Shown here piece after piece: positions 13,230 to 18,319 of a stretch of 35,352 nucleotides of DNA. The number at the start of each line of letters is the position of its first letter. Position 1 is the first letter of the stretch. Under the pieces are notes generated by a model. The model searched no databases, had not been told where the DNA came from, and worked only from the letters and a program-made list of their open reading frames with translations. Origin of the DNA: an uncultured Verrucomicrobiota bacterium. GTDB lineage: Bacteria > Verrucomicrobiota > Verrucomicrobiia > Opitutales > Intestinicryptomonadaceae. The stretch covers positions 1 through 35,352 of the forward strand of contig CASDUP010000016.1 in the NCBI GenBank assembly GCA_949283955.1, written 5' to 3'. A program made the translations under genes and the position numbers.

Positions 13230-14231
13230 TTACCGCCTCTTACGAAGCGCAAACAGGAGGGCGAACAGCCCGGCTGCTATGGAGAATATCGAAGCTTCCG
13301 GAATATTTGCATTTATTACGCCTACTGCATCGAGATCAAATCCGGAAGTTCCGGTGGTGGGATAGGCGTCGTAAATGGGGGATCCTGAACTGTCCAAAGT
13401 GTTTCCGTCGCCGACTATATCGACTATTCTTACATAGTTTATTTCGTCGGTATTGAGATAAGAGTAGTTCGATAGAAATTCGCTGACATACTCGTCGGAA
13501 AATATGCAGGTGTCGGAGGCTCCGCCGCCGTGGGAGGATATGTATTCGTAAACGTCGTCAAGCTCTCCGATGTCGTATCCCGTGCCGTATCCTATCCTAT
13601 ACTTGTCTCCAAGATTGTAAATTTTTACAGGATCGTTGTCTCCGGATTCCCCGTCGCTTCCGACGGGGGAATCCCCGAGATAAAAATTGGGAAACCGCAC
13701 AAAATGTTCTCCGTCGGTCGATACCTCCACGAAAGCCAATTCGAGGAAAGTGTCGTTGAGTGCGTTTTCGAAAACGACAAAGTCGTAGCCTTCTCCGTCG
13801 AAGATAGGGTTATCAAAAGTCAGAACTATGCTTCCTCCGTCGCCGAGAACCACAACCGCGGAGGTATCGCTTGCGGAGGCCTTTCCCAATGCGTTTTCAG
13901 GATTCATCCAGACATTTGCTGAGAAGTCCGTTCCGCTTCCCGTTATGCCGCTTCCGGGAAGGTAGTCTTTGTATCCTGACGCCCATCCCGAGAAGCTATA
14001 TTTGTCCTGCAGCTTTCCGTCTCGATAAATTTTTCCGCTTACGTGGATTGCGGCGTTTGTATTGCCGGCATCTCCGACGCAGTTTGCAAATCCGGTGACT
14101 ATTCCGAGAGTGGAATCGTAGGAGTAGTATTCGTTTTTTGGGAAAAACGGGTCCGGAATGCTTTGGGAAAAGGCGCTTGAGGCGCCGAGACAGAGCAGGA
14201 GAGCCAGAGTTTTTTTCATGCGTTTTTTCAT
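13230..14231 (-). CDS. PEP-CTERM-type surface protein in the cobalamin locus (second)
   Basis: 333 residues from the ATG at 14231, two bases after the receptor stop codon; an ATG at 14219 is also possible. The signal peptide covers about residues 5-22 (KTLALLLCLGASSAFS). The body is acidic and Gly/Asp/Ser-rich, with YDFVVFENAL followed by LAFVEVSTDGEHFVRFP near the middle. From memory this pattern occurs in surface proteins encoded beside BtuB-like receptors in other phyla; I could not check it. The end is a three-part sorting signal: IPEAS (from about residue 310), a hydrophobic helix and RKRR, as in PEP-CTERM proteins handled by an exosortase. Predicted to be sorted to the cell surface. It may bind cobalamin or a related ligand and hand it to the receptor, by inference from position. 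Confidence 0.82.
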   Translation of the reverse strand: MKKRMKKTLALLLCLGASSAFSQSIPDPFFPKNEYYSYDSTLGIVTGFANCVGDAGNTNAAIHVSGKIYRDGKLQDKYSFSGWASGYKDYLPGSGITGSGTDFSANVWMNPENALGKASASDTSAVVVLGDGGSIVLTFDNPIFDGEGYDFVVFENALNDTFLELAFVEVSTDGEHFVRFPNFYLGDSPVGSDGESGDNDPVKIYNLGDKYRIGYGTGYDIGELDDVYEYISSHGGGASDTCIFSDEYVSEFLSNYSYLNTDEINYVRIVDIVGDGNTLDSSGSPIYDAYPTTGTSGFDLDAVGVINANIPEASIFSIAAGLFALLFALRKRR

Positions 14232-14233
14232 TT

Positions 14234-16294
14234 TTAGAATCGTATATTTATTCCCGCGCGCATCATTCTTCCCATTCCGGGGTAATATCCCGATGACCAC
14301 GCGCACGATATGTACCGCTTGTCGAGGGCGTTGTCTATTGCCAGGAATATAGACGCTTCGCGGGTGATGTTGAAGTTGGCTTGGAAATCCAAAAGGGCGT
14401 ACGCGGGAATTTTTTCCACTTTGTTTTCGTAGTCGCTGCCGACGTACTGTTCTCCAAGAAAGCTAATTCTTGCCGATAATGTTATCCATTCGAGGGGCTT
14501 TACGTACGCCGAGGCGCTTCCGATTATATTCGGAACAAGGGGGACTTCGTTTCCATCGTTTGTTCCGGACGTGAAGTATGCCCTCACCGCCGACAGCATC
14601 ACTGATGCCCCCCATCTTTCCTCGTCGTAGCGCGCCTCAATATCGGCTCCGTAGCGACGGGTTGGCGGAAGATTGACATTTAGCCATTCCCCGTCGGAGT
14701 TTACGCTATAAGCGATTTCGTCGTTTAGCTCGGTTAGATAAACGCTGCCTGTGATGGTCCAATTTCCGGTCATGTATTTTGCGCCCACCTCGTAATTTTG
14801 ACCGGTTTCTGGCCTTAGATTGAAATTGAACATAGTGGGCAACACTGCTCCCTGGTATGCGGCTATCTCGTCCATTACCGGAGTGTGGTAAATCTGGTCG
14901 AACTTGAAAAACACCGAAGTGTCGTTGCGGAGTTTGTAATTGGCGCCGAAGTTTGCGCTCCAGCCGCTGTGCCTGATGGAGTTTCCATCGTACGAAGTGG
15001 AAGAGTTTTCCTTGGCGGGATAGTCGGGGTTTGGAACCGTGTACTTCTTGCCTCCGATGACGACCACGCGGTAAGGAAGAATAGTGCTGTCTATGTACTC
15101 CGTGTTCGATACGCAGGTTCTTTGCGTCTCAAATCTTCCCACGGCGCTAAGAGAAAGGTTTTCGAAAGGAGTCCAGTCTCCGCCGAAGTATGGAGCAAGA
15201 CTCGTTCTGTCGGCGAAGGCCTTGCTTTTTGTGTATTGGGTGTCGAGGTAGTACTTTTTAAAATCGAGATCGTCGTAGGTTCCGTCGAATCCCGCAACGA
15301 TGTGGGCCGATTCTCCCAAATTGAATCTATATCTTGGAGTGAAAGTAGCCGCCCATTGAAAATTTCTACTTCTACCCCCCAAGTTCCAATTTATGTCTCT
15401 GAAGTTCCAACCCAAGCCCACTTCGCCTTCTCCGAGCGGGGATTTATTTTTGAGCGTCGCGGTGCAAAGGCCGTCTTTTGACAGTGCTCTCGAATTGTTT
15501 CCGTCGCTTTGAGTGGGATCCTCGAGATATTGTTCGAGAGTAAGAGCACCCGGATAGTTGATGGAGGAATGGGTGAAATTTCCCGACAAAACGAAAGTAT
15601 TTTTATCGTCCAAGTCAACTCCGAGGGATAAATTGCCGCTTTGGGATTGGTTCTCGGAATTTTCCCTCCAGCCGTCGCTGGAAAAGTATCCGCCGTTTGC
15701 GGTAAAAAACCAATCGCCTTCCCGTCCAACAGCTCTCGCCGCAACATCAATCGTTTTGTACGATCCGTACGAAATCCTTCCCGAATATTTTAATCCATTT
15801 TCCTTGGGGGCAAGAGTGGTGATTTTTATTACTCCCGCCTCCGCGGACGATCCGTACATCGCGCTTTGAGCCCCGCGCAGTATTTCTATGCTTTCGACAT
15901 CGAACAGCGGTATTTGAAGCCAATTTATGGCGCCCATATCGGGCCTGTTGAATTTTTGCCCGTCAACTAATACAAGTATTCTCGTCTGGGAGTTTTCCCC
16001 GAATCCCCGCATGGAAAAATCCCCGGTAGCGGACGATCCAACAACGCTTCGGAAATTGATGTTTCCATAATTTTTTATGGCGTCGGCCACGTTGGAATAG
16101 GGAGACTGGTCGAGCTTTTCCGAATCTATGAAAGTCGAATTTATCGGAGTTTCGAGGGGCAGGGAGTCGAATCTGTAAGCGGTGACGCTCGTCTCCTCGA
16201 GAACTTTTATATCATCACCCTCTTCCAGCGCGAAAGCGGCGGCGCATACCGCTATCTGCGATATTGCCGCAAATTTTTTCGCGCAAATTTTCAT
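14234..16294 (-). CDS. btuB: TonB-dependent outer-membrane receptor, BtuB-like (cobalamin uptake)
   Basis: 686 residues with a signal peptide (about 1-22). A TonB-box-like EETSVTAYR sits at about 33-41 and resembles the DTLVVTANR box of E. coli BtuB. The plug domain follows with VADAIKNYGNINFR, RGFGENSQTRILVLVDGQ and VESIEILRGAQSAMYGSSAEAGVI. The 22-strand barrel ends in MRAGINIRF*. The receptor family is certain. Cobalamin as substrate rests on the cobalamin riboswitch upstream of the unit and on the TonB box, since cobamide receptors are the usual genes under this control. It needs TonB-ExbB-ExbD; ExbB/ExbD genes are at 31.1-32.8 kb. It is flanked on both sides by PEP-CTERM-type surface protein genes and separated from the first by a terminator-like hairpin. 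Confidence 0.88.
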   Translation of the reverse strand: MKICAKKFAAISQIAVCAAAFALEEGDDIKVLEETSVTAYRFDSLPLETPINSTFIDSEKLDQSPYSNVADAIKNYGNINFRSVVGSSATGDFSMRGFGENSQTRILVLVDGQKFNRPDMGAINWLQIPLFDVESIEILRGAQSAMYGSSAEAGVIKITTLAPKENGLKYSGRISYGSYKTIDVAARAVGREGDWFFTANGGYFSSDGWRENSENQSQSGNLSLGVDLDDKNTFVLSGNFTHSSINYPGALTLEQYLEDPTQSDGNNSRALSKDGLCTATLKNKSPLGEGEVGLGWNFRDINWNLGGRSRNFQWAATFTPRYRFNLGESAHIVAGFDGTYDDLDFKKYYLDTQYTKSKAFADRTSLAPYFGGDWTPFENLSLSAVGRFETQRTCVSNTEYIDSTILPYRVVVIGGKKYTVPNPDYPAKENSSTSYDGNSIRHSGWSANFGANYKLRNDTSVFFKFDQIYHTPVMDEIAAYQGAVLPTMFNFNLRPETGQNYEVGAKYMTGNWTITGSVYLTELNDEIAYSVNSDGEWLNVNLPPTRRYGADIEARYDEERWGASVMLSAVRAYFTSGTNDGNEVPLVPNIIGSASAYVKPLEWITLSARISFLGEQYVGSDYENKVEKIPAYALLDFQANFNITREASIFLAIDNALDKRYISCAWSSGYYPGMGRMMRAGINIRF

Positions 16295-16355: not shown

Positions 16356-17219
16356 TTAGGATTTTCTTTTTAAAGCGATGGTTGCAAGCAGTGAGATTAT
16401 TCCCGCTATGGCCGCGAAAGTGGAAGCTTCGGGAATCGGTGTATAGACGACGTTGTCGAGCGCAAAATACGAGGGAGAGTTCGCGCCATAAGCGCCAAAG
16501 TCGTTTGTTTGGGTCATAAACGCCAGACCGAGAAGTCCCTCGTCGGTATTTAAGGAGCTCAAATCCGCAGTAATCCATTGGTCTTCTACTCCGCTTTCCG
16601 GGGAGGAGAGCGAAACTCTCACGGACGCTTCCGTAAGTTGGGCGTTGGCGTCGAGGCCGTAAATAATGACTTCATAGCTATAGTTGTTTCCGTCGGCGTC
16701 GAAGTAATTGTTCAAGTAGTAGCTAGTGACCAGGGTGTTTGCTATTTGCACGCTTTCGAAATTTACCATCTCGTTAAACACAATGTATCCGGACCCGTCC
16801 TCCGTTTTCGATATGCCGTCTGGGTAGGGGGCCCAAGAGGAATCGGTTGCTGATCCGTACCATACGGCGTAGTTGCCGCCGGAAACTCCGTCGCCGTCGG
16901 TTCCGGTTATGGAAGTGTAGGAGGCTTTTTCACCCGCATTTGGATAAACGCTGACGGAGGGATTTGCATTTAGGTCGTTTGCGGAGGACACATTGATTCC
17001 CGTCCAGTTATAGTAGGATCCATACTCGCTTGACGAATTGCTCCAGTTGAACCCGACTGTGGCAACGCTCGACAATCCGTCGTAGTAGTGGTATCCGGAA
17101 TTGTTTCCCTCAGCGCGGTACGAATCGTAAACCGGAACGGCCGACGAAAAGTCGAGAACAGCCGCCCCGAGGCGGCATGCCATAAATAGCGAGAGTGCTA
17201 TTAGATATTTGATTTTCAT
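16356..17219 (-). CDS. PEP-CTERM-type surface protein, DUF4465-like, first gene after the cobalamin riboswitch
   Basis: 287 residues from the ATG at 17219, placed by a ribosome site (AAAGGAAG) and a signal peptide (MKIKYLIALSLFMACRLGAA). The body looks like DUF4465: an early segment with WSNSSSEYGSYYNWTGINVS, then NYAVWYGSA, and near the end FGAYGANSPSYFALDNVVY. The tail is IPEAS (from residue 262), a hydrophobic helix and KRKS, a PEP-CTERM sorting signal. I recall DUF4465-type proteins beside B12 receptors in Bacteroidota (BtuH-type), where they are lipoproteins; this link is from memory. Here no lipobox is seen and the PEP-CTERM tail would do the anchoring. Probable role: surface capture of cobalamin. 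Translation is probably blocked by the hairpin over its ribosome site. Confidence 0.82.
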   Translation of the reverse strand: MKIKYLIALSLFMACRLGAAVLDFSSAVPVYDSYRAEGNNSGYHYYDGLSSVATVGFNWSNSSSEYGSYYNWTGINVSSANDLNANPSVSVYPNAGEKASYTSITGTDGDGVSGGNYAVWYGSATDSSWAPYPDGISKTEDGSGYIVFNEMVNFESVQIANTLVTSYYLNNYFDADGNNYSYEVIIYGLDANAQLTEASVRVSLSSPESGVEDQWITADLSSLNTDEGLLGLAFMTQTNDFGAYGANSPSYFALDNVVYTPIPEASTFAAIAGIISLLATIALKRKS

Positions 17220-17221
17220 TT

Positions 17222-17267
17222 GTCTTCCTTTCTTCATTCGAGATTGGATTCTCGAGAAAAGGAAGAC
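17222..17267 (-). promoter_or_regulatory. Hairpin sequestering the ribosome-binding site (riboswitch expression platform)
   Basis: The minus-strand segment GTCTTCCTTT (17267-17258) is the exact complement of AAAGGAAGAC (17231-17222), which contains the ribosome site two bases from the ATG at 17219. An inner 6-bp stem (17250-17255 with 17238-17243) with a 6-base loop stacks inside it. No T-run follows, so control of translation is the natural reading. Which state forms when cobalamin is bound cannot be seen, but repression by ligand is the rule for this class. Confidence 0.8.
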
Positions 17268-17373
17268 CAAACGTAGCAAGACCCGCGCGCAAAACGAGCG
17301 CGGCGCGACCGCCAACGGCAACCCGAACAAAAGCCGAGGGCGATTTTTGCGCAGTCCGGAATTCTTTACTCGA

Positions 17374-17545
17374 GAATTTTAAGCGGACGTTCGGCACACA
17401 CGTCTTCTGGCTTACTCCAAAGTCGAAAATTCGACACGCGCCCGACCTTCCCATTACAGTGGTTTTGGGGCGCTTCGGAGATTACAGCGGCGAGACCGCG
17501 CCCGATTTTCACGGGACTTCCGTTTGCGTACGAACATTTAAATTC
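17374..17545 (-). promoter_or_regulatory. Cobalamin (B12) riboswitch
   Basis: Read on the minus strand, the class landmarks occur in the right order: AAACGGAAGTCCCGTGAAAA, the GCGGTCTCGCCGCTGTAA core, CCACTGTAATGGGAAGG, and the B12 box AAGCCAGAAGACGTG. The closing helix is visible: GAATTT at 17545-17540 pairs with AAATTC at 17379-17374, and ATGTTCG pairs with CGAACGT next to it. Two extra hairpins lie just upstream, at 17546-17562 (6-bp stem) and near 17570-17588. The riboswitch sits between the end of thiE and the first PEP-CTERM gene. A TTGACA at 17638-17633 may be a -35 box, but I see no matching -10 box. Confidence 0.95.
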
Positions 17546-17671
17546 GGGCGAAGATATCGCCCAAAATCCGAAGCGGAGAATCCGCTCCGTATTTAAAAGA
17601 ACGGCGCGGATGCTCGTAGGCTTCGCGGTGCTTGTCAAGATTTTTTAACGGAATTTCTCTTGGAGGGGGAT

Positions 17672-18319
17672 TTATTCTGATTCTCCAAGGAACGACTTTG
17701 TCAGATTTAATATTGCTTTGCAGGTATCGTCGGGGGAGAGAACGTCTGATACGGCGACGATTCTTTTTGCTCCCGCACGCCAAACGTCTCGGGCCGTTCG
17801 GGAGTTTATTCCGCCTATGGCAAACCACGGAAGCTTTGGATTCATTGCAGCAACCTTTGAAACAAGTTCGAGCCCTACGGCGGGCCTTCCGGGCTTTGTT
17901 TGGGTGGCGTAAACCGGCCCCACCGCGAAATAGTCGAGCAATTCCGGAATGTTGTCGGCTTTTTTTGCTTGTTCTATCGAATGGGTTGAAAGTCCAAGAA
18001 TAGAGTCGTGGCCTATTAGTTTTCGAGCCTCTTCAGGGGACAAATCGTCCTGTCCTATGTGCAGGCCCAAATTCAATTCCGCCGCCAACAAAGCGTCGTC
18101 GTTTATGATAAGTTTTGCGTTCGATTCTTTAAAGAGGGGCAGAATTTCAAGCGCTATGCTTCTTCTCTCATCTCGGCTTTCCTTTTTTGCCCGAAGCTGG
18201 ACTATTCTAGTTCCGCTCTTCAAAATTTGGGAACATTTGCAAAACGCATCGCTCCTGGATACGTATCCCGTGTCCAATATAGCATAGAAGACTGCTCCGT
18301 AGAGGAACTGTTTTACCAT
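17672..18319 (-). CDS. thiE: Thiamine phosphate synthase
   Basis: 215 residues, the usual length. It joins HMP-pyrophosphate and the thiazole phosphate to give thiamine phosphate. Family motifs are in order: an N-terminal FYAILDTGY, IVQLRAKKESRDE, LIINDD, LHIGQDDLSPEEAR, ILGLSTHS, FAVGPVYATQTKPG (phosphate-binding Thr/Lys) and FAIGGI near the end. It follows the AmaP-like gene by 20 bases and is the last gene of a long minus-strand run that starts with mqnP. No TPP riboswitch is seen in front of it, and no other thi gene is in the window, so the rest of the pathway lies elsewhere. Downstream, about 125 bases on, begins the cobalamin riboswitch of the next unit. Confidence 0.95.
   Translation of the reverse strand: MVKQFLYGAVFYAILDTGYVSRSDAFCKCSQILKSGTRIVQLRAKKESRDERRSIALEILPLFKESNAKLIINDDALLAAELNLGLHIGQDDLSPEEARKLIGHDSILGLSTHSIEQAKKADNIPELLDYFAVGPVYATQTKPGRPAVGLELVSKVAAMNPKLPWFAIGGINSRTARDVWRAGAKRIVAVSDVLSPDDTCKAILNLTKSFLGESE

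Follow-up and report, generated by a model that had tools for sequence, protein, structure and literature searches.

The window spans a complete contig (35,352 bp) from a draft assembly of 1.65 Mb and carries a cobalamin riboswitch ahead of genes that, by their content, form a B12-uptake operon; all features of this locus lie on the minus strand. The first regulated gene (16356-17219) encodes a secreted 287-aa protein with a PEP-CTERM-like tail, which scored 45.7 bits against the DUF4465 model cut-off of 25 (PF14717, E=1.2e-11). B12 binding has been demonstrated for the DUF4465 family (PMC13398666). The second gene (14234-16294) encodes a TonB-dependent receptor (PF00593, 2.3e-34; PF07715, 3.1e-21), BtuB-like by context. 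The product of the third (13230-14243) is likewise secreted with a PEP-CTERM-like tail, had no match in a Pfam search, and may, given its place in the operon, be another surface protein that binds B12. A strong hairpin resembling a terminator, with TTTTTTT after it (16354-16324), separates the DUF4465 stop from the receptor start, and GC-rich hairpins 3' of the first gene also occur in several relatives, some with T-runs. Partial termination at this hairpin is a possible means of setting how much receptor is made relative to the DUF4465 protein. No promoter stood out for the riboswitch operon.

The aptamer (17383-17560) matched the full RF00174 model (1-189) at 56.7 bits against a gathering cut-off of 31.5 and was the sole RF00174 match in the assembly. 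An Rfam search of 17150-17700 at E values up to 5 returned only this aptamer, plus chance matches of miRNA precursors to the hairpin. The B12 box GCCAGAAGAC is present at 17411-17399. In the minimum-free-energy (MFE) fold, the P13 hairpin (17354-17388) consists of an outer stem GUCCG/CGGAC (17388-17384/17358-17354), an inner stem AAUUCU/AGAAUU (17378-17373/17365-17360) and the L13 loop CGAGUAA (17372-17366). The kissing bases CGAG of this loop (17372-17369) are complementary to CUCG in L5 of the aptamer (17491-17494), so that CUCG:CGAG links aptamer and expression platform. Model score, B12 box and L5-L13 kissing together indicate a corrinoid riboswitch, with corrinoid binding predicted.

Downstream, directly before the first gene, the sequestor 5' arm or anti-Shine-Dalgarno GTCTTCCTTT (17267-17258; as RNA, GUCUUCCUUU) pairs perfectly over 10 bp with the ribosome binding site (RBS) AAAGGAAGAC (17231-17222), which forms the 3' arm and is separated by AA from the ATG at 17219-17217. 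These exact coordinates confirm the hairpin that a sequence-only reading had described as masking the ribosome site of the first gene after the riboswitch, two bases before the ATG. Of 3000 dinucleotide shuffles, 4 gave a perfect stem of at least 10 bp over the RBS; when the RBS was held fixed, 7 of 3000 did. The 166-nt region folded at -57.4 kcal/mol compared with -44.0 ± 3.7 kcal/mol for shuffles (z = -3.6). The loop measures 26 nt (17257-17232) rather than the 27 bases originally given. It does hold the second, 6-bp stem of that reading, TCGAGA/TCTCGA (UCGAGA/UCUCGA in RNA; 17255-17250/17243-17238), which by inspection is not conserved as such in relatives. The MFE fold of the expression platform lengthens the sequestor by pairing CGTTTG (17273-17268) with CAAATG, and the start codon is therefore hidden as well. 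Some corrinoid riboswitches act through an intrinsic terminator (PMC10653944), and the hairpin could be read as one that controls transcription. However, as had been noted from the sequence, no U-run or T-run follows it, and the RBS, 2 nt ahead of the AUG, makes up its 3' arm. An intrinsic terminator was ruled out by the lack of a U-run, and we give transcriptional control a practically negligible chance.

The RF00174 search covered the genus (14 genomes), the family (19) and the order (132), and we assigned start codon and P13 by hand in 30 loci, 29 within the family and one (L052) elsewhere in the order. L052 was counted in the 30-locus tallies, the kissing count included, and excluded from the permutations of strand pairings, which cover family loci; order-level RF00174 matches L035-L051 were kept out of the statistics. 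Four loci had no safely assignable start codon (L003, L004, L015 and L026) and one had no assignable P13 (L002), and these were left out. Just 3' of the aptamer, each of the 30 loci has a small hairpin with a loop of CGAG, CGCG or similar, which we took as P13/L13. Computation showed covariation of the variable L5-L13 base in 30/30 loci without exception (U-A in 11, G-C in 18, A-U in 1). The 3-bp kissing core was intact in all 30, where 14.9 were expected and the maximum in 5000 permutations was 25; the L13 position of each locus was chosen by eye, which may slightly favor this count but not the arm pairings.

The RBS arms vary widely among loci (AAAGGAAGAC, GGAAAGAAAAC, UAAGGAGAU, GAGGAAAGAC, GGAAUCAA), and each finds its partner in its own upstream arm. 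Among the 29 family loci, arm and RBS paired at -12.6 kcal/mol, compared with -8.4 kcal/mol when arms were swapped (z = -10.2, 0/20000 permutations; z = -7.6 when each genome contributed a single locus). In single loci, this complementarity exceeded that of arm shuffles in 22/30 cases (p ≤ 0.05 each). Homologous loci that keep the aptamer do, then, show the RBS-complementary arm that the sequence-only reading led one to look for, in 22 of 30 and in a locus-specific manner. The computed covariation likewise bears out the hairpin, with arm-RBS pairing kept while the sequences change (z about -10). The sequestor is thus kept as a pairing and not as a sequence.

The sequestor arm has a second partner. 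The putative antisequestor, which consists of L13 and the 3' strand of P13 (CUCGAGUAAAGAAUUCCGGAC, 17354-17374), formed a computed duplex of 18 pairs with the arm at -19.8 kcal/mol. The arm common to the two competing helices spans 17251-17272, and antisequestor and sequestor pairings overlapped on it by 17 nt. Against arm shuffles, the antisequestor of this locus alone gave p = 0.037. Across the 29 family loci, antisequestor and arm paired at -19.5 kcal/mol compared with -15.7 kcal/mol when permuted (z = -6.3, 0/20000; z = -5.6 with one locus per genome), and in L013 the antisequestor formed 22 contiguous pairs with the arm. The strength of this support comes from the family rather than from this locus singly. 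Control pairings were flat in the permutation, both for the P13 5' strand with the arm (z = -0.7) and for the antisequestor with the RBS (z = +0.2). Both helices were individually significant in only 11/30 loci, and this search found no good antisequestor in L005, L016 and L021. The L13 motif CUCGAG (17374-17369) is repeated within the sequestor arm (17256-17251), and likewise in L018. The motif is self-complementary, and its second copy is accounted for by the pairing of the arm with L13 in the antisequestor helix.

The sequence-only reading had proposed a different alternative partner, a GC-rich hairpin at about 17280-17307 between the aptamer and the sequestor. This hairpin is present and stable in the MFE fold, with CCGCGC (17303-17298) paired to GCGCGG (17288-17283) as local spacer structure. 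However, it overlaps neither sequestor arm, pairs weakly here (-6.9 kcal/mol with the arm, -6.6 kcal/mol with the RBS) and has no locus-specific complementarity to either. Permutation over 21 loci ruled it out as the alternative partner (linker with RBS, z = +1.2; linker with arm, z = -1.5), and the control pairing of linker with antisequestor gave z = +0.7. We thus consider an RBS hairpin switching against the linker hairpin extremely unlikely. Given that the linker controls were flat and that the P13 3' strand was locus-specific, the comparison points to the 3' half of P13 together with loop L13 (17374-17354), and not the GC-rich hairpin, as the partner that would free the RBS. Fold and duplex calculations found the expected RBS-hiding hairpin and a competing helix, with the P13 3' strand as competitor in place of the GC-rich hairpin.

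The B12 box offers another candidate, which would capture the sequestor arm in the ligand-free state, as in some proposed models that use aptamer bases. The arm sequence GUCUUC does match AGAAGAC of the B12 box GCCAGAAGAC over 6 bp, at -8.5 kcal/mol in this locus. This pairing is nevertheless far weaker than that of the P13 3' strand (-8.5 vs -19.8 kcal/mol), and the B12 box is nearly invariant among relatives while the arms differ, so that it is unable to explain locus-specific complementarity. The B12 box was rejected as alternative partner on these two points, and capture by it seems very unlikely to us.

Folding of transcript prefixes of this locus showed that P13 forms first in the growing transcript. 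The antisequestor dominated in transcripts that stopped 9-33 nt short of the AUG, with the P13 strand paired far (0.71-0.81) and not locally (0.0). Once the RBS had emerged, the MFE fold flipped to P13 plus sequestor. For the full-length transcript without ligand, the model gave -62.7 kcal/mol for the OFF state and -55.8 kcal/mol for the ON state, about 7 kcal/mol in favor of OFF. Since OFF is favored without ligand, the ON state must be kinetic or aided by something outside the model, or else the model energy is off. The ligand-free full-length folds of L013, L020 and L023 stayed ON, with the RBS 0.78-0.99 unpaired. That the equilibrium fold hides the RBS here without ligand is what would be seen if the hairpin were a constitutive translation damper or a thermosensor unresponsive to the aptamer. 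However, a static hairpin has no need of an arm that is complementary to both RBS and P13 3' strand across loci, and several relatives fold ON by default. We hold such a damper or thermosensor to be highly improbable.

Taken together, we think it very probable that this is a cobalamin riboswitch whose expression platform represses the B12-uptake operon at the level of translation, by exchange of the P13 strand as antisequestor. With B12 bound, L5 (CUCG) of the aptamer would kiss L13 (CGAG), and this kissing would lock P13 and bar its 3' strand from pairing elsewhere. The arm (17272-17251), left free, would then pair with RBS and AUG, giving the OFF state. Without B12, P13 would be weak and the arm would be captured on transcription by L13 and the P13 3' strand, leaving the RBS open in the ON state. 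Given that the L13 kissing bases belong to the antisequestor, they can serve either the kissing or the antisequestor helix, but not both. Computation showed the helices, their locus-specific complementarity and exclusivity, the L5-L13 covariation and the folding order in prefixes; we infer that the exchange depends on ligand, that its direction is OFF, that translation is what it controls and that the choice in this locus is kinetic. A hairpin pairing the RBS, an antisequestor helix mutually exclusive with it and no intrinsic terminator are the features found here of a translational OFF switch. The translational switch proposed in the sequence-only reading is supported by the RBS-sequestering hairpin 3' of the cobalamin aptamer and by the arm-RBS pairing kept in relatives.

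We regard it as evenly balanced whether this is a lineage-wide type of translational corrinoid switch, in which the L13 kissing bases lie within the antisequestor, ligand-driven kissing blocks pairs of the ON helix, and the arm stays complementary to RBS and P13 while all three drift. First genes tested in relatives matched DUF4465 in five cases, a TonB plug domain in one and NrdD in one. In the same family, cobalamin riboswitches also precede genes resembling the anaerobic ribonucleotide reductase NrdD, with an ATP cone, in L005, L007, L008, L011, L027 and L033; the gene of L007 matched NRDD (7.4e-83) and the other NrdD-like genes were called by their similar N-termini. The riboswitches leading into ribonucleotide reductase genes in L005, L007 and L008 may have other platforms. 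In L028, the riboswitch precedes a 36-codon ORF followed by a transporter-like gene, and this short ORF has its own sequestor-like pairing (GGAGAUU/AAUCUCC) adjoining its AUG, about 105 nt 3' of the aptamer.

How an effector selects among alternative expression-platform structures had been unknown and was resolved for two transcriptional switches in 2023 (PMC10653944). In the Priestia megaterium metE corrinoid riboswitch, L5-L13 kissing stabilizes P13 (PMC10653944), as in the model proposed here. The regulatory hairpin of metE is an intrinsic terminator acting on transcription, whereas the hairpin in this locus hides RBS and AUG and would act on translation, and the pairing predicted here also takes in the L13 kissing bases. 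The Escherichia coli btuB riboswitch (L053; PMC11162775) resembles the present locus in its translational OFF control, P13 kissing hairpin and separate RBS hairpin, and its ON state, an anti-SD/anti-anti-SD helix (PMC11162775), may be likened to the ON helix here. In contrast, the calculated pairing between the btuB P13 3' strand and anti-SD arm is weak (-7.0 vs -19.8 kcal/mol here), and the btuB linker and sequences are unrelated. The env8 hydroxocobalamin riboswitch is also translational with L5-L13 kissing, but its RBS lies inside L13 (PMC10907184), whereas the present locus has its RBS in a separate hairpin some 140 nt further downstream. For the regulated genes, the Bacteroides thetaiotaomicron B12 loci provide a parallel, being riboswitch-regulated and encoding the B12-binding DUF4465 proteins BtuJ1/J2 near TonB-dependent uptake (PMC13398666, PMC12751083), in a different lineage and with a DUF4465 lipoprotein in place of the predicted PEP-CTERM-like tail.

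By analogy, the locus would do at the level of translation what the P. megaterium metE switch does at that of transcription; the logic is already known, the comparative evidence good and the surprise modest. The family is a comparative case in which an unrelated lineage would apply the same P13-exchange logic to translation, and its some thirty natural variants provide a basis for designing compensatory-mutant tests. These results also support the view that, outside Bacteroides too, DUF4465 proteins and TonB receptors make up uptake operons regulated by B12.
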